Assembly (NCBI GenBank): GCA_945871815.1
Contig: CAMBXM010000002.1
Coordinates: forward strand, 1 to 64,000
Reading direction: 5' to 3'
Length of the DNA stretch: 64,000 bases
Origin: Singulisphaera sp. GP187
GTDB lineage: Bacteria; Planctomycetota; UBA1135; UBA2386
Positions 3,784 through 13,359 of this stretch are shown here, one piece after another (position 1 is the first letter of the stretch; each line of letters begins with the position of its first letter). The notes under the pieces are model-generated. The model ran no database searches, was not told where the DNA came from, and was given only the letters and a program-made list of their open reading frames with translations. Position numbers and translations under genes: made by a program.

Positions 3784-6222
3784 ATGCCTCAGATCCTCGG
3801 TTCTCCGGCTCGATGTGCTCTTCTGCGCCAGGTCTCCTCGGTGTTGCTGTGCGCCTTCGCGCTGACCCAGTTCGCTACCGCGCAGTGTGGACTCACGCGG
3901 ATGCCTTCGACCGGCATTCCGGGCACGAACGGCACGATCTACGCCGCGGTGCGTCACGACCTCGACGGTGCGGGGCCAGAGGCGCCGGTCGTCGTGCTCG
4001 GGGGCAGTTTCACCGTGATCGGGACGACGGCCGCCGGTGGCCTCGCGACCTATGACTCGGTGACCGGGGCGATCGCACCTCTCGGCGGCCCGGGGCCGCA
4101 CAACGTGCGCGCGCTCCTGGTCACCCAGAACGGCGACCTGCTCGCGGCATCGCAGACGCCGACGGCAGGGTTCGTCGTCGAGCGTTGGAACGGGGCGACT
4201 TGGGCCCAGCTCGGCCAGACCTTCGACGCACCGATCCGCGCACTCGCCGAACTCCAGAACGGAGACGTGGTCGCTGCCGGTGACTTCACTGGCATCAGCG
4301 GGACGCCGTTGCCGAGCATCGCGCGTTGGAACGGCACGTCGTGGCAATCGATGGGAAGCGGCGCCGATGCATCCGTCTACGCACTCGCTGTGCTCCCGAA
4401 TGGCGACCTCGTGGCGGGGGGTGGCTTTCAAACGATCGGCGGCGTGGCAACAACGGGACTGGCTCGCTGGAACGGCTCTGGCTGGGTGAGCTTCGGCGTG
4501 CTCGACTTCGGCGTCCTCGCGATGCTCGTCGCGTCGAACGGAGACCTCGTGATCGGCGGGACGTTTCGCACGATCGGCGGCTCGCCGGCGACCGGTCTCG
4601 CGCGATGGAACGGCAGCACCTTCACCGCCATCTCGCTGCCGGCTCCCGTTCATGCGATCGCCGAAGCCAGCAACGGGGACCTCGTCGTCGGTGGTGAGTT
4701 CACGACGCCGGGTGTGCGCGTCGCGCGATGGGATGGAACGTCGTGGTCGCCACTCGCCGCGGGACTCGGCGCCGTTCCTCGTGCACTCGCGTTCGGCGCG
4801 GACGGCACGTTGGTGGCTGCAGGCAGCTTCACTGGCCTGAACGGTGTGTCGGCGTTGGGTGTCGCGCGCTTCGGACAAGGCGTGTGGTCGCCCCTGTGCG
4901 GTGGCTTCAGCGGCCCGCTCGTCGCCATCGCAGCGCATCCCGAGGGAGGCTTCGTGATGTCGGGGCAGGTCGGCTCGATCGATGGTGTGCCGATGCCGGC
5001 GCTCGTGCGCTTCGACGGGACGCTGTTCGTGCCATTCGCACCGGGCACAGCGACGCTCTCCGATCCGATGCGCGTGTTGCCGAACGGGGACCTCGTCGGG
5101 CGTGATGGCTCGGGGCGACTCGTGCGCGTCAACGCGTCGTCGCGGACGCAGCTCGATCCGCCGGTGGCGGCGATCAGCGACCTGGACGTCGATCCGCAGC
5201 AGCGTCTCGTCGTGGTCGGTCCCCAACCGGGATTCGCAACGAGCCAGATGTGGCGACTCGACAGCAGCGTCTGGTCGCCGATCGGCGGCGGGTTGGCCGG
5301 ATCGTTGCCCGCGCTCGTGGCGATGCCGAACGGCGACTATGTGGTCGGAGGGTCGTTCCCCGATGTGGGTGGTGCGCCCATCGCCTACGTCGCGCGCTGG
5401 GTCGGCAACGTGTTCGTTCCGCTCGGGAGCGGGTTGAACGGACCGGTCACCAATCTGGTGCTGCGGCAAGACGGTCGCCTGCTCGTGCTCGGTACGTTCA
5501 CGATGGCCGGCGGTGTCGCCGCCAATGGCGTCGCGTGGTGGGATGGCGTGTCGTGGTCGGCAGAGCCGGGGCTCGAGAACATCGTGTTCACGCGGCCCAA
5601 GTTCTTGCCCGACGGCAGCCTCATCGTCCGCACCAGTTCGGGTTCGCAGCGGTGGGACGGCGTGCAATGGACGAGCTTGGGCGACAGCTCCGTCATCTTG
5701 AGTGGGACCAGCGAGGGCACCGCGGTGCTCACGAACGGCGATTATGTCCTCGCCGCGGTGTTCCAGACCTCAGCGGGGGCTGCGGCGAACAACCTCGTTC
5801 GGTTCCAGTCGAGTTGCCGCGCGCTGGCGACGCCCGTGGGGGCTGGCTGTCTTGGTCAAAGTCTGCAGACGACGAGCGCTGCATGGGCGGCTGGCGTGTG
5901 CCGCGTGCGAGGCGTGGGGCTCGGAGCTGCGCAGCTGGTGTTGGTCGGGACCGGGTTCGCGCCGCAGGCAGTGGGGCTCGACACGTTGCTGCCGCAGGGA
6001 GTCGCTGGGTGCTCGCTGCTGGTCGTCGCGGACTCGTCGCTCACGCAGCTCGCGTTCGCGAACGGCGGCGTCGCGGAGAGTTCGCTGTCGATCCCGCGGG
6101 ACCCGGTGTTGGTCGGGGCTGCGTTCCGGCAGCAGATGGTGCCGGTGCAGTTCGATGGGATTGGGGCACTCGTGGCGGTGACCAGTACCAACGCAGTGGA
6201 TCACGTGGTCGGCAGCTACTGA
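3784..6222 (+). CDS. Secreted NGDxVxGG-repeat protein with planctomycete-type C-terminal module
   Basis: 812 residues from the ATG at 3784, chosen because it gives a signal peptide ending LTQFATAQC; the frame is open well upstream. About 11-13 repeats of roughly 40-55 residues follow, each containing an 'NGDLVVGGxF' strand and an 'ARWNGxxW' strand, for example NGDVVAAGDFTGISG and LARWNGSGWVSF. This pattern resembles delta-60 or kelch-like beta-propeller blades. The last 130 residues (from CRALATPVGAGC) form a separate module with a DPVLVGAAF..Q core that recurs in the Cys-rich protein at 15357. Function is unknown; an extracellular, perhaps surface-attached, role is inferred. Confidence 0.75.
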   Translation: MPQILGSPARCALLRQVSSVLLCAFALTQFATAQCGLTRMPSTGIPGTNGTIYAAVRHDLDGAGPEAPVVVLGGSFTVIGTTAAGGLATYDSVTGAIAPLGGPGPHNVRALLVTQNGDLLAASQTPTAGFVVERWNGATWAQLGQTFDAPIRALAELQNGDVVAAGDFTGISGTPLPSIARWNGTSWQSMGSGADASVYALAVLPNGDLVAGGGFQTIGGVATTGLARWNGSGWVSFGVLDFGVLAMLVASNGDLVIGGTFRTIGGSPATGLARWNGSTFTAISLPAPVHAIAEASNGDLVVGGEFTTPGVRVARWDGTSWSPLAAGLGAVPRALAFGADGTLVAAGSFTGLNGVSALGVARFGQGVWSPLCGGFSGPLVAIAAHPEGGFVMSGQVGSIDGVPMPALVRFDGTLFVPFAPGTATLSDPMRVLPNGDLVGRDGSGRLVRVNASSRTQLDPPVAAISDLDVDPQQRLVVVGPQPGFATSQMWRLDSSVWSPIGGGLAGSLPALVAMPNGDYVVGGSFPDVGGAPIAYVARWVGNVFVPLGSGLNGPVTNLVLRQDGRLLVLGTFTMAGGVAANGVAWWDGVSWSAEPGLENIVFTRPKFLPDGSLIVRTSSGSQRWDGVQWTSLGDSSVILSGTSEGTAVLTNGDYVLAAVFQTSAGAAANNLVRFQSSCRALATPVGAGCLGQSLQTTSAAWAAGVCRVRGVGLGAAQLVLVGTGFAPQAVGLDTLLPQGVAGCSLLVVADSSLTQLAFANGGVAESSLSIPRDPVLVGAAFRQQMVPVQFDGIGALVAVTSTNAVDHVVGSY

Positions 6223-6264
6223 CGGCCCAGGGATGCTGAGCCATGCCCGCGCGGGCTCGGTGCG

Positions 6265-7329
6265 TCAGTCGAAGAGCTCGGCGAGGGATGTGGCGTCGAG
6301 GACCCGGAGAGCGAGCGACTTGAGTTCGGCGGGCTTGGCTCGGGCGAGACGCTCTTCGATGTGGTCTGGTAGCGGTCCGAAGCGCTTCTGCAGCAGCGCG
6401 CGGAGGAGCTCGAGTTGACCTCGACTGCGCCCTTCGGCCTTGCCCTTCCGTAGTCCGCGGGCCTCGCTCTTGGTCGTCGCTGCGTCGACCTTGTCCTGCA
6501 CGTACTTCTCGAGTGGGTTGAGCATGAGCTTCACAGTCCTTCGCGGCAGCGTCTTTCGCACCACGGCGTGCACAGTCTGCGTGTCGACCTTGGCCGTTGT
6601 CGCGAGGTAGGAGAATACCATCCCGAGCAGGAGCCTGCCTCGCGGGGCATCGAGCACGGCGGTCAGGAGGGATCGGAGGCGAAGGAGTTCGCGCGGGAGC
6701 GCCTCGGCGTCGAGGCCACGCAAGTGGACGAGGGCTTCGATGGCGATGCGTGCGACGAGGTCGTCGCGCGCGTCCTCGATGCGGGCATCGGCCTCGCGCG
6801 AGAGGTCATCGAGCAGGTAGGTCCACGAGGGCAGGAGAGAACGCAGGGCGTCCCGTTCCTCGGGCGTGAGGTCCTCGGGCACAGCGAACAGGTCGCGCAC
6901 GTCGAGCGGCGCGGTCCACGTCTCCTCGCCGTGGTGGACGACGAGCGGGATCACGAGTGGCAGATCGGGCGGGCTGCCGAGCTGCTGGTGCAAGCGGTCG
7001 ATGAGGCGGACGCCGTAGCGGAGCATCTGCCAGGCGGTGAGGCGGTCGTTGCCGCTCTTGTGCTCCAGCACGGCGTGCAGGAAGACGGCGCGGGAGCCGC
7101 ACGGAATGCGGAACAGGAGGTCGGCTGTGTGAGGACGGTCGGCGGCGTCGGCGACCCCTTCGTCGACGCGTTCGAGGCGGGACCAGTCGAGGCGAAGGGC
7201 CAGCGCCCGGTAGCGCGGATCGCGCAACACACGCGAGCGCAGCAGGGTCCGCGCCTGGTCGGGGTGCGCGAAGGCCGTGCGGAAGAGCTGGTCGTGTGGG
7301 CGGGAGAGGTCCACGCCCTCCATGTGCAC
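6265..7329 (-). CDS. Rpn-family recombination-promoting nuclease / transposase_31-like
   Basis: 354 residues. Rpn proteins are PD-(D/E)xK endonucleases that raise RecA-independent recombination in E. coli and have since been linked to defence. The opening HDQLFRTAFAHPDQARTLL is the family signature. The catalytic residues are visible as Asp70 (TADLLFRI), Glu89 and Lys91 (VLEHKSG), followed by the conserved MLRYGVRLIDRL helix. The C-terminus has the charged EARGLRKGKAEGRSRGQ region typical of the family, then a helical tail. It is convergent with the repeat protein and sits next to a broken kinase gene. No terminal inverted repeats were seen, so it is best read as a chromosomal nuclease gene, not a mobile element. 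Confidence 0.85.
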   Translation of the reverse strand: MHMEGVDLSRPHDQLFRTAFAHPDQARTLLRSRVLRDPRYRALALRLDWSRLERVDEGVADAADRPHTADLLFRIPCGSRAVFLHAVLEHKSGNDRLTAWQMLRYGVRLIDRLHQQLGSPPDLPLVIPLVVHHGEETWTAPLDVRDLFAVPEDLTPEERDALRSLLPSWTYLLDDLSREADARIEDARDDLVARIAIEALVHLRGLDAEALPRELLRLRSLLTAVLDAPRGRLLLGMVFSYLATTAKVDTQTVHAVVRKTLPRRTVKLMLNPLEKYVQDKVDAATTKSEARGLRKGKAEGRSRGQLELLRALLQKRFGPLPDHIEERLARAKPAELKSLALRVLDATSLAELFD

Positions 7330-7419
7330 GGGAGGTGCGAGCGGTTACGGGTGAGCCTGCGAAAGCGTTCGCGCGCCGCTGGCTCGACACCCGGCGTGGG
7401 CGAGCTACGCTGGCCCGCC

Positions 7420-7629
7420 ATGCAGCCCGGGAACCCTGCTCAAAAAGACCGCCCGACCCACATCGGCCCGTTCAAGGTCCTCGACGTGATCGGTGAGGGC
7501 GGCATGGGGACCGTCTACCTCGGCGAGCAGAGAGAACCCGTCCGCCGCCGCGCCGCGGGCGGCGTATCGCGGTCCCCTCGACGCAACAGCAACGCCGCGC
7601 ATCCTTGCATCCGCGCCCCGTCCCCGTAA
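7420..7629 (+). pseudogene. Truncated Ser/Thr protein kinase (N-lobe fragment)
   Basis: The ATG at 7420 opens 69 codons. Residues about 14-44 are a clear kinase N-lobe: IGPFKVLDVIGEGGMGTVY is the glycine-rich loop, and LGEQREPVRRRAA matches the insert that in planctomycete PASTA/TPR-type kinases runs straight into the catalytic lysine strand (VALKVIK). Here similarity stops at about 7550 and the reading frame continues as unrelated Arg/Pro/Ser sequence to a TAA at 7627. The ATP-binding lysine and the whole C-lobe are missing. The break lies about 90 bases before mqnD. I infer a deletion that removed most of a kinase gene; the fragment cannot be an active kinase. Confidence 0.7.
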
Positions 7630-7642
7630 CCAACATGCACCC

Positions 7643-8509
7643 GTGCCCTTCCCCCGCCCGCTCCGCTTCGGCATGTCGCCGTGCCCCAACGACACCTTCG
7701 CGTTCTGGGCCGCGTTGCACGGCGAGGTGACGGACCCGCACATCCGCCTCGAGCTCGCGATGCTCGACGACGTCGAAGCGCTGAACCGCCGCGCCACCGG
7801 CCCGCTCGCCGAACGCCTCGACGTGACGAAGCTCAGCGTCCCGGCCCTCGCTGCCGCGATCGACGACTACGCGATCCTGCCGTCCGGCGCGGCCCTCGGC
7901 TTCGGCTGCGGCCCGCTCGTCGTGCGTCGCGCCAACGATCCTCGCCGCACGCTCGCCGACCTGCGCGGTGCCCGCGTCGCGATCCCCGGCGAACGCACGA
8001 CCGCCTTCCTGCTCTTCTCCACCTTCGCGTCGCGCGAGTGCACCTTCGTGCCGATGCGCTTTCACCACATCCTCACCGCCGTCGCGAACGGCGAGGTCGA
8101 CGCCGGCCTCGTCATCCACGAGAGCCGCTTCACCTACGCGTCCCACGGCCTCGCCCTCACAGCCGACCTCGGCGAACTCTGGGAGCAGGCCACGAACGCG
8201 CCGCTGCCGCTCGGTGTGATCGCGATCCGCCGTTCGCTCGGCCGCGCGTGCTACGACGCCACAGCCTCTCTGCTGCGCGCCTCCGTCCGACTCGCGCAGC
8301 AGAACCCCTCCCGCGCGCGCCCCTTCGTCCGCCAGCACAGCCAGGAAATGAACGACGACGTCTGCGACCAGCACATCGCCCTCTACGTCAACGAGCGCAC
8401 CGTCGACCTCGGCGACGTGGGCCGCCACGCGATCGACGCCATGCTGCAACGCGGCCGCGCGAGTGGCCTGTTGCCCGCGGGCCGGTCGCCGTGGTGGGGG
8501 GACGCATGA
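7643..8509 (+). CDS. mqnD: 1,4-dihydroxy-6-naphthoate synthase
   Basis: 288 residues from a GTG at 7643, which places the conserved strand LRFGMSPCPNDTFAFW at residues 6-21, where the family has it. MqnD converts cyclic dehypoxanthine futalosine to 1,4-dihydroxy-6-naphthoate in the futalosine menaquinone pathway. Other family features are DVTKLSVPALAAAI, the phosphate-binding-like GCGPLVVRR, the VAIPGERTTAFLL hinge and VDAGLVIHESRFTYA with the conserved catalytic-site His. The stop overlaps the ATG of the hydrolase gene by four bases, so the two are translationally coupled. It starts 14 bases after the stop of the kinase fragment. Confidence 0.92.
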   Translation: MPFPRPLRFGMSPCPNDTFAFWAALHGEVTDPHIRLELAMLDDVEALNRRATGPLAERLDVTKLSVPALAAAIDDYAILPSGAALGFGCGPLVVRRANDPRRTLADLRGARVAIPGERTTAFLLFSTFASRECTFVPMRFHHILTAVANGEVDAGLVIHESRFTYASHGLALTADLGELWEQATNAPLPLGVIAIRRSLGRACYDATASLLRASVRLAQQNPSRARPFVRQHSQEMNDDVCDQHIALYVNERTVDLGDVGRHAIDAMLQRGRASGLLPAGRSPWWGDA

Positions 8510-9630
8510 TCTTCCCGCTGCTCGTCGCCCTAGCCCTCTGCGTTCCGACTGTGGTGATCGCGCTGCTCACAGCGCTCGTCCTCTTCCTCCGCAAACGGCC
8601 CGTGCGAGCGTTCGTGCAAAAGGCTCTGTGGGCGCACCTGTTCTTGCTCGTGTTCCACGCGTTCGTGTCCTTCCCCGGCTGGCTCGGCTGGTTTGGCGCG
8701 CGTTCCCTCGGCACTCGCGGCGACGAACGCGCCTACGACGGCCCGCGGATCACCGCCACCGGTGAGTGGCTGGTGCAGAGCAGCACGACGTTGAGGGCGG
8801 AGCGAACGACACCTGCCGACGAAGCCGTGATCGCCAGCGCGCGCGCGCTCGCCGTGTCGCTGCCCGGCGCGGAGTTGCCGTCAGGCGGTCGCATGACCCT
8901 CAACGCCTACCGCGTGCCCGCCACGGTGTCGCCGCCGCGCGCGGTCGTCGTGCTCGTGCACGGGCTGTTTCGTTCGGCGCTCGAACTCGAGGCCCCGGCG
9001 CGCATGTGGCGCGATCTCGGCTGCGAGTGCTGGCTCGTCGAGCAACGCAACCATGGGCACAGCGGTCGGGCGACGGCGACCTTTGGCATCGAAGAGGGCA
9101 AGGATCTCGCCGCCGCCGTCGCGTTCGTCCAGGCGCAGAGCAGCGGTGTGCCCGTCGTGATGTTCGGCGTCAGCCTCGGCACGGTCGCAACTTCGCTGGC
9201 TTTGCCGCAGCTCGATGGCATCGCCGGGGTCGTGCTCGATGCACCGGTCGGCGACGTGTTGGCGACCGCCCAGCGCATGCTGTCGCTCGAGCGCGCTGGC
9301 GACAATCGACGGTTCTTCACCCTGTGGGAGCCTTGGTGCTCGCTCGCGATTTCGTCGCTGCAGTTGTGGTCCGGAGTCGAACTCGCCGACGTCCAGCCAG
9401 AGCGCGCGTTGCGCGGCCTGTCGCCAGAGCTGCCGATCCTGCTGATCGGCGGTGACGGCGACGACAAGGTGACCCCTCAGTCGGTGCGTTCGCTGTTCAC
9501 GAGTCTGCCGATGTCGGAAGGCACCAAAGAACTGTGGATCGTACCGGGTGCGCACCACGGCGATGCGTGGCGCGTCGTGCCGAAGGAGTATGGCGCGCGG
9601 CTACAGGCGTTCTTGCAGCGCTGTCGCTGA
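8506..9630 (+). CDS. Membrane-anchored alpha/beta hydrolase
   Basis: 374 residues, starting at the ATG that overlaps the mqnD stop. Two hydrophobic segments lie at about 2-27 and 42-65, so the catalytic domain is probably anchored at the membrane. From about residue 135 it is an alpha/beta hydrolase: oxyanion strand VVVLVHGLFRS, nucleophile elbow FGVSLGTVA with Ser near 223, the acidic residue in GGDGDDKVTP near 320, and His in VPGAHHGDAW near 350. The substrate is unknown. Coupling to mqnD suggests co-expression, but no step of menaquinone synthesis is known to need such an enzyme. Confidence 0.75.
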   Translation: MIFPLLVALALCVPTVVIALLTALVLFLRKRPVRAFVQKALWAHLFLLVFHAFVSFPGWLGWFGARSLGTRGDERAYDGPRITATGEWLVQSSTTLRAERTTPADEAVIASARALAVSLPGAELPSGGRMTLNAYRVPATVSPPRAVVVLVHGLFRSALELEAPARMWRDLGCECWLVEQRNHGHSGRATATFGIEEGKDLAAAVAFVQAQSSGVPVVMFGVSLGTVATSLALPQLDGIAGVVLDAPVGDVLATAQRMLSLERAGDNRRFFTLWEPWCSLAISSLQLWSGVELADVQPERALRGLSPELPILLIGGDGDDKVTPQSVRSLFTSLPMSEGTKELWIVPGAHHGDAWRVVPKEYGARLQAFLQRCR

Positions 9631-9686: not shown

Positions 9687-10433
9687 ATGGCACGCAAGCC
9701 AGACCGCGCCAGCGATCTCGAACGCCTCCACTTCGAGATCCAGCCGCAGCCCGATGACGTCACCTGCGGACCGACGTGCCTGCATGCGATCTACGATTTT
9801 TGGGGCGATACGGTCGCCCTCGAGGATCTGGTTCGCGACGTGCCGAGGACGCCGTCCGGCGGAACCAGCGCGGTGTTCCTGGCCAACCACGCGTTGCGCC
9901 GCGGCTACCGCGCGACCTTGTTCACCTACAACCTGCGCCTGTTCGATCCGACGTGGTTCGGCAATGGGGGCAAGGACGTGGCTGAGCGGTTGCGGCTGCA
10001 GTCGGAGTGGAAGACGCCCAGCAGGCCGGTATTCGGCCAACTGACCGACGGCTTCCTGCAGTTCCTCGAACTCGGCGGCGACTTGCGCTTCATCGATCCG
10101 TCGGCCGAATTGCTGCGGCGGTGGCTGCGGCGCGGGGTGCCGATCCTCACCGGCCTGAGTTCGACGTTTCTCTACCGGCACTCGCGGCAGTTCGGTGAGG
10201 ACGACCACGATGACGACGTGCGCGGCGAACCGCAGGGGCACTTCGTGGTGTTGTGCGGCTACCGTCCAGCGCGGCGCAGCGTGCTGGTCGCGGACCCATT
10301 TCTCGAGAATCCGCTGTCGCCGGGCCAGCACTACGAAGTGCGACTCGAACGCGTGCTCTGCGCGATGATGCTCGGCGTGCTGACCCACGACGCGAATCTC
10401 TTGATGATCGAACCGCGAACTGCCGACGCCTAG
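9687..10433 (+). CDS. C39/papain-like cysteine peptidase
   Basis: 248 residues from the ATG at 9687, no signal peptide. The catalytic Cys is Cys27 in QPDDVTCGPTCLHAIYDFWG, with the preceding Gln for the oxyanion hole. His185 (QGHFVVLCGY) and Asp203 (VLVADPF) complete a papain-type triad spaced as in peptidase C39-like proteins. There is no ABC or membrane domain, so it is not a bacteriocin exporter. The next gene starts 10 bases downstream and encodes an RLAN-ATP-grasp ligase. In most known RLAN neighbourhoods a papain-like peptidase is fused to a GNAT acetyltransferase; the GNAT part is absent here. It probably processes or hydrolyses the product or substrate of the two ligases that follow (inference). 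Confidence 0.75.
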   Translation: MARKPDRASDLERLHFEIQPQPDDVTCGPTCLHAIYDFWGDTVALEDLVRDVPRTPSGGTSAVFLANHALRRGYRATLFTYNLRLFDPTWFGNGGKDVAERLRLQSEWKTPSRPVFGQLTDGFLQFLELGGDLRFIDPSAELLRRWLRRGVPILTGLSSTFLYRHSRQFGEDDHDDDVRGEPQGHFVVLCGYRPARRSVLVADPFLENPLSPGQHYEVRLERVLCAMMLGVLTHDANLLMIEPRTADA

Positions 10434-10443
10434 TCCGCTACCG

Positions 10444-11922
10444 ATGCGCAACCTCGTCGTCGTCAATGATCCCAAGGAATGGCCCTTTCATCAGGACGGC
10501 GTCGAGGTCGTCGCTGCCCGCAAGTACCTGATCCATCCGTCGTACTCGACGTTGGAGCGCGTGCGCGTCCTCAACCTCTGTCGGTCGCTGGCCTACCAGA
10601 AGATCGGCTACTACGTCTCGCTGCTGGCCGATGCCCGCGGCCACAAGCCGATGCCGAGCATCGAGACGATCCAGAACATGAAGTCGCAGGCCGTCGCGCC
10701 GATCCTCGGCAGCGAAGTGCAGGACCTGATCGACCAGTCGCTGCAGAAGGTCCAGGCCGAGGAGTTCGTGCTCAGCGTCTACTTCGGCCACAACATGGCG
10801 GCGCGGCACGAGCGGCTCGCCTCCGCCCTGTTCCGGATGTTTCCGTGTCCCTACCTGCAAGGCTCGTTTTCACGCAGTGACAAGACCGGGCGATGGCGAC
10901 TCGAGTCCCTCAAGCCGTTGGCGCTCGACGACATTCCTGAGACGCACGTCGACTTCGCCCGCGACTCCACCAAGGAGTATCTAGGCCGCGCCCATGTGCG
11001 CTCGCCACGTCGCGACTCGCGGCCGTATGACCTGGCGATGCTGGTCGATCCCGATGAGGAGAACGCGCCGTCGGACAAGAAGGCACTGCAGAAGTTCGTG
11101 AAGGCGGGCGAGCAGGTTGGGTTCAACGTCGAGCTGATCCAGAAGGAGGACTACCCGCGTCTCGCCGAGTTCGACGCCCTCTTCATTCGCGAAACGACGT
11201 CGGTCAACCACCACACCTTTCGCTTTGCCTGCCGCGCCGAGGCGCTGGGTCTCGTCGTCATCGACGACCCGACCTCGATCCTGCGCTGCGCCAACAAGGT
11301 CTACTTGGCCGAACTCGCCGACCAGCACGACATCCTGGTGCCCAACACGATGATCGTGCACAAGGACAACCTGCACGATCTCCCGGCGCGCCTTGGCCTG
11401 CCGTGCGTGCTGAAACAGCCCGACAGCGCGTTCTCCGCGGGCGTCACCAAGGTCGGATCGATCGAGGAGCTCAATGAGAAGGTCGAGGAGATGCTGAAGC
11501 GCAGCGATCTCGTCGTTGCCCAGAGCTTCGTGCCGACCGAGTTCGATTGGCGAATCGGCATTCTCGACGGCATTCCGCTCTATGCCTGCCGCTACTACAT
11601 GGCCGACGGGCATTGGCAGATTGTCCAACGCGATGCTGCCGGCCAGAACGCCGACTATGGCCGCGCTGAGACCTTGCCGGTCGAGCAGGCCCCGACCAAG
11701 GTCGTGAAAGCGGCACTGAAGGCCGCGAACCACATCGGCAAGGGGCTCTACGGCGTCGATCTCAAAGAGGTAGGCGGCAAGGTCTACATGATTGAGGTCA
11801 ACGACAACCCAAACGTTGACGCTGGCTTCGAGGACGCGGTTCTCGGCGAGGACCTCTATCTCCGCATCATGCGCACGTTCATGGCGCGCGTGGTCAATCG
11901 CAGCAGCGGGTGGTCGCGATGA
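10444..11922 (+). CDS. RLAN-domain RimK-like ATP-grasp ligase
   Basis: 492 residues. The N-terminal part (about 1-150) matches the RLAN domain that precedes RimK-like ATP-grasp modules, starting LVVVNDPKEWPFH and including YYVSLLADARGHKPMPS. The middle (190-280) is the pre-ATP-grasp region with FDALFIRETTSVNHHTFRFA. The ATP-grasp domain (about 290-485) shows the nucleotide-binding strand PCVLKQPDSAFSAGVTKV, the VAQSFVPTEFDWRIGILDG strand and the Mg-binding IEVNDNPN. Such enzymes join an amine to a carboxylate through an acyl phosphate, typically adding amino acids to peptides or proteins. The stop overlaps the GCS2 gene by four bases. The substrate is unknown. Confidence 0.88.
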   Translation: MRNLVVVNDPKEWPFHQDGVEVVAARKYLIHPSYSTLERVRVLNLCRSLAYQKIGYYVSLLADARGHKPMPSIETIQNMKSQAVAPILGSEVQDLIDQSLQKVQAEEFVLSVYFGHNMAARHERLASALFRMFPCPYLQGSFSRSDKTGRWRLESLKPLALDDIPETHVDFARDSTKEYLGRAHVRSPRRDSRPYDLAMLVDPDEENAPSDKKALQKFVKAGEQVGFNVELIQKEDYPRLAEFDALFIRETTSVNHHTFRFACRAEALGLVVIDDPTSILRCANKVYLAELADQHDILVPNTMIVHKDNLHDLPARLGLPCVLKQPDSAFSAGVTKVGSIEELNEKVEEMLKRSDLVVAQSFVPTEFDWRIGILDGIPLYACRYYMADGHWQIVQRDAAGQNADYGRAETLPVEQAPTKVVKAALKAANHIGKGLYGVDLKEVGGKVYMIEVNDNPNVDAGFEDAVLGEDLYLRIMRTFMARVVNRSSGWSR

Positions 11923-13160
11923 CCCTCTGCGCGTTCGAGGCCTTTGGCGTCGAGATCGAGTACATGGTCGTTGACGATCGCTGTTTCCACGTCCGGCCGG
12001 TCGTCGACGAACTCCTGCGTCGCCATGCTGGCCAGATCACTGGTGACTTCGCCGACGGCTTCGTCTCGTGGTCCAACGAGCTTGCCCTGCACGTCATCGA
12101 GCTGAAGCACAGCGCACCGTCGGCGCTGACCGGGAGCGCCCGCGAGTTCGCGGCCTCGGCGGGCCGAGCCGACGCGACGTTGCGCACGATGGGCTGCCGC
12201 CTGATGCCCGCTGGCATGCATCCACTGATGGAGCCCAGTGAGTTCGTTCGCTGGCCGCACGACTGTGCCGACATCTATGCCGCCTACGACCGCATCTTCG
12301 ACTGTCGCGGACATGGTTGGTCCAACCTGCAGAGTTGCCACCTCAACCTGCCGTTCAAGGATGATGCGGAGTTTGCTCGCGTGCATCTCGCCGCGCGGGC
12401 GCTGCTGCCACTGCTGCCGGCGCTGAGCGCTGCATCGCCCTTTTGCGAAGGGCGCGATACCGGCTGGCTCGATTGGCGGATCGAGACCTACCGCCACAAC
12501 CAGGCGCGGGTGCCAAGCATCGTCGGAGCCATCGTGCCGGAGCCGGTTCGCAGCAAGCAGGAGTACTACGACACGATCTTGCAGCCGATCTGGAAGGCCA
12601 TCGCGCCACTCGATCCCGAGGGGTTGCTGCAAGAGGAGTGGCTCAACTCGCGCGGCGTCGTCGCCAAGTTCTTCCGCGACTCGCTGGAGATCCGCGTTCT
12701 CGATTGCCAGGAGTCGCCGTTCTGCGACTTCGCCATTTGCCTGCTCGTGGTCGAGGTGCTGAAGGCGCTGGCGAGCGAACGCTGGGTCAAACTCGATGCG
12801 CTGGCCAAGCTACCGACGCAGGCGCTGTCGACGCAGCTGCTGGATGTCGCGAAGTATGGCGACCAAGCCATCGTGCGGATGCCAGCGCTGCTGGCGGCGC
12901 TCGGGCTGCCGCCTCGCGAGACCAAGGCGGCGTCGGTGTGGCGTTGGCTTGCGGACACACTGCTGCCGGACACCAGTGGCGTTGATGCCGACCTCGCGCG
13001 ACCGCTGGAGAACATCTTGCAGAATGGACCGCTCGCGCGGCGCATGCTGCTGACGGTCGGCAAGAAGCCGGATCGTGCGGCGCTGCAGCGGCTATGCGGC
13101 AGCCTCGCCGACTGCGTCGTACCGGGCCTGCCGCCGATGTTCGTTCCGCCGCGCCGCTGA
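11919..13160 (+). CDS. GCS2-family carboxylate-amine ligase (glutamate-cysteine ligase-like)
   Basis: 413 residues from the ATG at 11919, which overlaps the ligase stop as ATGA. The opening FEAFGVEIEYMVVD is the GCS2/YbdK signature with the metal-binding Glu residues. Further family features are HVIELKHSAPS, the QSCHLNLPF strand containing the conserved His, WRIETYRHNQARVPSIVG with nucleotide-contacting Arg, and LEIRVLDCQESPFCDFA near 265-280. GCS2 enzymes form gamma-glutamyl or similar amide bonds with ATP. Together with the upstream ATP-grasp ligase and peptidase it makes a three-gene unit expected to build and trim a short peptide or amide conjugate. Length is close to the usual 370-400. 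Confidence 0.85.
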   Translation: MTLCAFEAFGVEIEYMVVDDRCFHVRPVVDELLRRHAGQITGDFADGFVSWSNELALHVIELKHSAPSALTGSAREFAASAGRADATLRTMGCRLMPAGMHPLMEPSEFVRWPHDCADIYAAYDRIFDCRGHGWSNLQSCHLNLPFKDDAEFARVHLAARALLPLLPALSAASPFCEGRDTGWLDWRIETYRHNQARVPSIVGAIVPEPVRSKQEYYDTILQPIWKAIAPLDPEGLLQEEWLNSRGVVAKFFRDSLEIRVLDCQESPFCDFAICLLVVEVLKALASERWVKLDALAKLPTQALSTQLLDVAKYGDQAIVRMPALLAALGLPPRETKAASVWRWLADTLLPDTSGVDADLARPLENILQNGPLARRMLLTVGKKPDRAALQRLCGSLADCVVPGLPPMFVPPRR

Positions 13161-13359
13161 ACGAAGGCCGAGGGTGTTCGCGGTCCACTTCGCGCGTTGG
13201 CTGGGCCGGGTCGCAGCAGTTGTCGAGCGTCGTGGCCGCGATCTCGCGGACCAAGGCGACGTGGCGTGGGCTTTGGCCGGTTCGGCCAGTGGACCATTCG
13301 CGCGCGTTTCTGCGCCGGCTTCGCGAGGTCTGTTTGCGTACGTGGTCCTGCGCGCGTGG

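Follow-up and report, generated by a model that had tools for sequence, protein, structure and literature searches.

The operon and its three enzymes

We analyzed a 64,000-nucleotide stretch of DNA from Singulisphaera sp. GP187 (contig CAMBXM010000002.1, positions 1 to 64,000; hereafter the window), in which three genes on the + strand form a tight operon. The first (9687-10433) encodes a stand-alone C39-like, papain-fold cysteine peptidase or transferase of 248 amino acids (aa), the second (10444-11922) an RLAN-ATP-grasp ligase of 492 aa and the third (11919-13160) a GCS2-type carboxylate-amine ligase of 413 aa. The open reading frame (ORF) list and the sequence bear out the tight row described in the initial annotation of this DNA: the peptidase and RLAN genes lie 10 bases apart, and the stop of the ATP-grasp gene overlaps the start of the GCS2 gene in an ATGA (11919-11922, + strand). 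The genome holds one copy each of RLAN, of this GCS2 type and of this peptidase type. As that annotation had also stated, all three genes belong to known families in Pfam: Peptidase_C39_2 (PF13529; 39 bits versus a cut-off of 24), RLAN (PF14401; 151-154 bits versus 25; approximately 10516-10965) together with ATP-grasp (approximately 11290-11820), and GCS2 (PF04107; 93 bits versus 21). The ATP-grasp part passed a Pfam cut-off solely as Dala_Dala_lig_C, and the other domains of the trio each passed their own.

The residues expected of working active sites are preserved in all three proteins. In the peptidase, each member of the Cys27/His185/Asp203 triad, previously noted as intact, is kept in 163/163 homologues, and the oxyanion residue Gln21 in 162 of the 163. 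Its AlphaFold2 model (predicted local distance difference test, pLDDT, 90.8) matched C39 peptidases at the head of the list, the endoisopeptidase PeiR and, at rank 18, the acyl-enzyme of the phytochelatin synthase Alr0975. The protein thus has the domain, the triad and the papain-like fold of its family, and is predicted to cleave peptide bonds; the matches of the modelled fold point to a chemistry that proceeds through an acyl-enzyme on cysteine and leave the substrate undefined.

Five residues of the ATP-grasp enzyme (Lys285, Lys324, Asp439, Glu451 and Asn453) are invariant in 218/218 homologues, and they are presumably ligands of ATP and metal, as in RimK. The model of the RLAN protein (pLDDT 85.8) was matched in a fold search over its ATP-grasp part only, none of the matches placing the N-terminal domain. 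The closest folds were those of LysX/ArgX, RimK and D-Ala ligases, with a template modelling (TM) score of at most 0.84 on the target, and the graspetide ligase PsnB was also among the matches. These similarities suggest acyl-phosphate ligation as the chemistry and, again, leave the substrate undefined. The initial annotation had asked whether the enzyme might prove to be a known RimK-type ribosomal modifier. It did not: the protein scored 45 bits against the RimK family cut-off of 143, shared approximately 20% identity with RimK/LysX structures and reached none of the NCBIfam cut-offs for the RimK/LysX/MptN/CofF alpha-L-glutamate ligases (best 51 bits versus 276), which rules out RimK orthology. 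A RimK-type modification of ribosomal protein S6 would be in keeping with an ATP-grasp fold of the RimK/LysX group, but with scores below every named equivalog, an extra RLAN domain and a gene that is bound to GCS2 or GNAT genes, we consider this explanation barely credible.

Eight residues of the GCS2 protein (Glu12, Glu14, Glu54, Glu61, His141, Arg187, Glu257 and Arg259) are invariant in 138/138 homologues; their role is presumably catalytic, as in E. coli gamma-glutamylcysteine synthetase. The protein remained under all NCBIfam cut-offs, including the gshA, EgtA and YbdK equivalogs (best 56 bits versus 176), and because these GCS2 proteins fall below every named model they form a clade of their own. 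Glutathione synthesis proper was rejected as a function, the GCS2 protein scoring 21 bits against 249 for gshA and 20 against 371 for EgtA, and the ATP-grasp enzyme 21 against 272 for glutathione synthase. These distances also weigh on the idea of a glutathione-like low-molecular-weight thiol, for which GCS2 would make gamma-glutamylcysteine, a third residue would be added by the ATP-grasp enzyme, and the role of phytochelatin synthase would fall to the C39 enzyme. The families are suited to it, since GCS2 includes the plant glutamate-cysteine ligases and EgtA, ATP-grasp includes glutathione synthetase, and phytochelatin synthase is among the peptidase's fold matches; given the scores, and with C39 peptidases ahead of phytochelatin synthase in the fold ranking, we regard such a thiol as improbable.

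The two ligases and the peptidase co-occur in a conserved order

The initial annotation had proposed that planctomycete RLAN neighbourhoods be searched for this trio and its order, and that rare co-occurrence in relatives would count against a shared pathway. In a phylum sample of 392 genomes, RLAN was found in 93, the GCS2 type in 70 and the peptidase type in 64. RLAN and GCS2 occurred together in 67 genomes (Fisher P-value 9e-50) and GCS2 and the peptidase in 62 (Fisher P-value 2e-60), P-values that are optimistic given the kinship of the genomes. Only three genomes had GCS2 alone and one the peptidase alone; the match in genome G104 reaches a contig end. Co-occurrence was thus far from rare, and gene order was conserved as well: at 179/179 loci with both ligases, the two genes lie on one strand with RLAN before GCS2, the peptidase is present at 164 of these and always 5' of RLAN, and the median distance between the matched profile ends of operon genes is 18-27 bases. 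This set of loci was gathered partly by a GCS2 search, and the 138 RLAN-centred loci gathered by RLAN alone agree with it. Furthermore, five planctomycete genomes (G118, G124, G149, G178 and G234) encode RLAN-GCS2 fusions in a single open frame of 990-1028 aa, exemplified by positions 5887-8868 (- strand) of locus L068 in G178. Such fusions strongly indicate that the two ligases act jointly.

GCS2 and GNAT exclude each other beside RLAN

Among the 138 loci found by RLAN alone in planctomycetes, gammaproteobacteria and Bacteroidota (GNAT cut at E < 1e-20), 90 had GCS2, 40 had GNAT, none had both and 8 had neither (Fisher P-value 4e-27). Among the eight, several run into a contig end or have a GNAT match that is weaker. 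Planctomycete loci mostly extended 7 kb to each side; those of gammaproteobacteria and Bacteroidota extended about 0.5 kb after RLAN, where an adjacent gene is visible and a more distant one could be missed. The window locus has no GNAT and carries GCS2 instead, as do 89 other RLAN loci. GNAT itself was found either as a separate gene or as a fusion partner, of RLAN in some cases and of a DUF3335 papain domain in others.

The window peptidase is homologous to the papain domain of DUF3335 (PF11814; hhalign probability 95.7%), the one that is found fused to GNAT, and is not a replacement for it. The remark in the initial annotation that GCS2 replaces the other RLAN partners holds in a precise sense: GCS2 stands where GNAT stands in other RLAN systems, and the two are never found together. 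Because of the homology of the papain domains, RLAN and the papain-fold enzyme are the shared core, with GNAT or GCS2 (the latter with the fourth gene described below) as the variable part. In a first tree the GNAT-RLAN fusions were nested among the GCS2 types, which required three changes. Repeated replacement of GCS2 by GNAT was not upheld, since an approximately unbiased (AU) test on a set trimmed of long branches did not reject a single GCS2 clade (P-value 0.56), and one switch between GNAT and GCS2 suffices. For other ATP-grasp systems it has been stated that what a peptide ligase makes can receive its cap from a GNAT (PMC4431377), and both kinds of capping agree with this idea.

Two further observations were made at RLAN loci. 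In family f14 and two other genomes (L067, L107-L111), RLAN is split into an N-terminal gene of approximately 210-247 aa and an ATP-grasp gene of approximately 300 aa, in most cases with a GNAT gene after them. In addition, a large gene whose sequence, on visual inspection, resembles a fusion of GNAT with a carbon-nitrogen hydrolase (nitrilase) is found near RLAN operons of either type (L051, L076, L082, L083 and L100) and may be another amide enzyme linked to them.

A fourth gene regularly follows GCS2 in relatives

Clustering of neighbours revealed a gene of approximately 230 aa directly 3' of GCS2 in relatives, which belongs to the N-formylglutamate amidohydrolase family (FGase). It follows GCS2 at 94/179 of the loci with both ligases, and many of those without a visible FGase end at contig ends or in short flanks. 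Among planctomycete loci, FGase adjoins GCS2 at 43/63 with long flanks, compared to 0/14 GNAT loci; at locus L123 it lies at the front of the operon. Thus, while the three-gene operon of the initial annotation is real, the full set elsewhere comprises four genes, and the one after GCS2 had been overlooked.

At the window locus the slot that FGase occupies in most relatives (13161-13359) is empty, and no FGase lies next to GCS2 there or at the sister loci L032 and L114-L118. The window genome encodes an unlinked FGase elsewhere (G000:C24:1089-1868), which is 40-44% identical to the operon type and scores 220 bits versus 265-344 for that type, that is, below but near it. The unlinked FGases of the searched L032/L114-L118 genomes are 39-64% identical to this copy.

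Distribution and gene neighbours

The arrangement is neither rare nor specific to the window; it is one of the two main arrangements of RLAN. When one genome per species was scanned with a GCS2 profile and the best 80 loci were taken, these came from at least nine phyla: Planctomycetota, Bacteroidota (Pontibacter, Rufibacter, Roseivirga and Marivirga), Pseudomonadota, Thermodesulfobacteriota (Desulfatitalea and Desulfuromonas), Myxococcota, Gemmatimonadota, Balneolota, Ignavibacteriota and Hydrogenedentota. Cultured bearers include Pontibacter, Rufibacter, Roseivirga and Blastopirellula, the last with B. marina DSM 3645. RLAN itself was present in 50 of the 229 genomes sampled from a gammaproteobacterial class and in 32/248 of a Bacteroidota sample. 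This spread rules out a pathway peculiar to the window genome.

Beyond the four genes, we found no conserved outer neighbour in any phylum, only lineage-specific ones, which argues that the gene set is complete in itself. The same result bears on a ribosomal peptide (graspetide-like) pathway, in which the ORF search would have missed a precursor gene and the C39 enzyme would be a leader peptidase. C39 peptidases do cleave leader peptides at double-glycine sites, and such a pathway would give meaning to the match with PsnB. However, transporter and conserved outer neighbour are both absent, there is hardly any intergenic space (ORFs under 60 aa were outside the systematic search), and pathways of this kind have no use for either GCS2 or FGase, so that we judge it highly improbable.

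Around the window operon itself, a menaquinone-biosynthesis-type protein (PF02621; 7493-8509, + strand) is encoded directly 5' of the trio, with a gene for an alpha/beta hydrolase (8491-9630, + strand) between the two. By cluster and length, both genes are apparently common to the sister genome of L032 and not to most other relatives, and they may be co-transcribed with the trio. Further upstream, just outside the operon region, lies a gene for a YhgA-like protein (Transposase_31, DUF4351; 6265-7329, - strand), and a PALP-family enzyme is encoded 3' of the trio on the opposite strand.

A proposed pathway to short glutamyl peptides

Taken together, the evidence tips slightly in favour of the trio and FGase constituting a self-contained, cytosolic, non-ribosomal pathway to a short glutamyl peptide or amide. 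As a first step, suggested by its family, GCS2 would use ATP to couple an amino group with the gamma-carboxyl of glutamate or of a similar acid, so that a block with a gamma-glutamyl cap results. The RLAN-ATP-grasp enzyme, judging from its family, fold and invariant active site, would then use ATP to add a further amino acid to the capped block, as LysX, RimK and glutathione synthetase do with theirs. Through a thioester on Cys27, the C39-like enzyme may trim or transfer the peptide in the way that phytochelatin synthase acts on glutathione. Finally, FGase would cleave an N-acyl-glutamate bond for deprotection, editing or recycling. In the GNAT lineages an acyltransferase would act in place of GCS2 and FGase, and this exchange suggests that the first step is the capping of an amino group, by an acyl or a glutamyl group.

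Several points weigh against this proposal. FGase membership is looser: within the family of the window genome the gene lies apart from the operon and, because G383, a relative without RLAN, has an FGase too, the unlinked copy is a probable and not a proven partner of the window trio. In two well-assembled genomes (L062 and L090), RLAN occurs without GCS2, GNAT or peptidase nearby, and the GCS2 and peptidase types are also missing elsewhere in them, which indicates that RLAN can do without its partners in some cases. Proteins are also conceivable substrates of the peptidase. The evidence is genetic (operon structure, conservation, exclusivity, fusion and intact active sites), and each chemical step is predicted from enzyme family. 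YbdK-type GCS2 enzymes often have no established true substrate, and so gamma-glutamyl chemistry, too, is a family-based prediction.

A different use of the same enzymes would be protein tagging, in which a protein would receive a short glutamyl tail or tag from the two ligases and lose it again through the C39 peptidase and FGase, just as RimB takes off S6 what RimK has put on. The layout of ligase and peptidase is that of a writer and an eraser, C39 relatives cut protein substrates, and RimK, which with LysX is the nearest characterised kind of ligase, modifies a protein and pairs with a peptidase (PMC12239564). Nevertheless, a conserved gene for a target protein nearby is absent in every phylum examined, two unrelated ligases with an acyl-glutamate hydrolase look more like metabolite synthesis, and GNAT standing in for GCS2 better fits the capping of a small molecule. 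We therefore consider tagging unlikely, although less so than the thiol, graspetide and S6 explanations.

If the four genes do make a short glutamyl peptide, the choice between GNAT and GCS2 would be a clue to its chemistry: an N-capped glutamyl peptide, with an acyl cap in one lineage and a glutamyl cap in the other. An operon that remains intact across many phyla with frozen active sites would be expected to make something that cells need. More tentatively, and with less confidence than in the pathway itself, we propose a widespread class of small gamma-glutamyl-capped peptides, the products, across at least nine phyla, of a modular system in which GCS2 (with FGase) and GNAT are exchanged for capping and the RLAN ligase and C39 enzyme are constant. 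Such a class, if real, might serve as a compatible solute or as a redox or cofactor-like molecule.

Comparison with known systems

Iyer et al. in 2009 (Mol Biosyst 5:1636) reportedly linked RLAN to papain-like peptidases, GNAT and GCS2 and predicted a role in peptide synthesis, and the Pfam text for PF14401 is said to tie RLAN to GCS2 and papain-like peptidases. The neighbourhoods described there share the RLAN-ATP-grasp ligase and the papain-like peptidase with the window operon, which differs in having GCS2 instead of GNAT, and, as a type, in its regular fourth gene FGase, in the mutual exclusion of GNAT and GCS2 and in the fusions. The link between RLAN, GCS2 and a papain-fold enzyme had thus reportedly been noted by 2009. 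Within the open literature searched, which did not include the text of the 2009 study, we found nothing on the four-gene set, and what appears to be new comes down to FGase as a regular member, the strict exclusivity of GNAT and GCS2 and the RLAN-GCS2 fusions.

The GNAT-DUF3335 papain fusion shares the RLAN partner and a papain domain homologous to the window peptidase, whereas its loci have GNAT for GCS2 and lack FGase. A 2023 survey, with reference to the 2009 study, describes frequent fusion of DUF3335 members to GNAT domains and suggests for the latter a possible activity as peptide ligases or acetylases (PMC10318531). The RimK/RimB system of S6 glutamylation resembles the trio in pairing an ATP-grasp ligase with a peptidase (PMC12239564), but the trio has an ATP-grasp enzyme of another family by curated cut-off, a peptidase of another fold and a second ligase. 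The glutathione/phytochelatin pathway comes close in its folds: the GCS2 fold, the ATP-grasp fold and a cysteine enzyme of papain fold follow one another in the same chemical order; all three sequences are far from those of the trio, which differs further in the N-terminal RLAN domain and FGase.

The nearest understood parallel is the operon for the osmolyte N-acetylglutaminylglutamine amide (NAGGN; asnO, ngg and an aminopeptidase gene, PA3459-PA3461). There, a single protein with a GNAT domain both acetylates one glutamine and joins another to it, and its gene shares an operon with those for an amidotransferase and an aminopeptidase (PMC8070244). NAGGN synthesis differs in its acetyl cap and its asparagine-synthetase-like amidotransferase, and it lacks RLAN, C39, GCS2 and FGase. 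Like the trio, it brings together a capping enzyme, a peptide ligase and a peptidase, and its product is a short glutamine-derived dipeptide made without the ribosome (PMC8070244).

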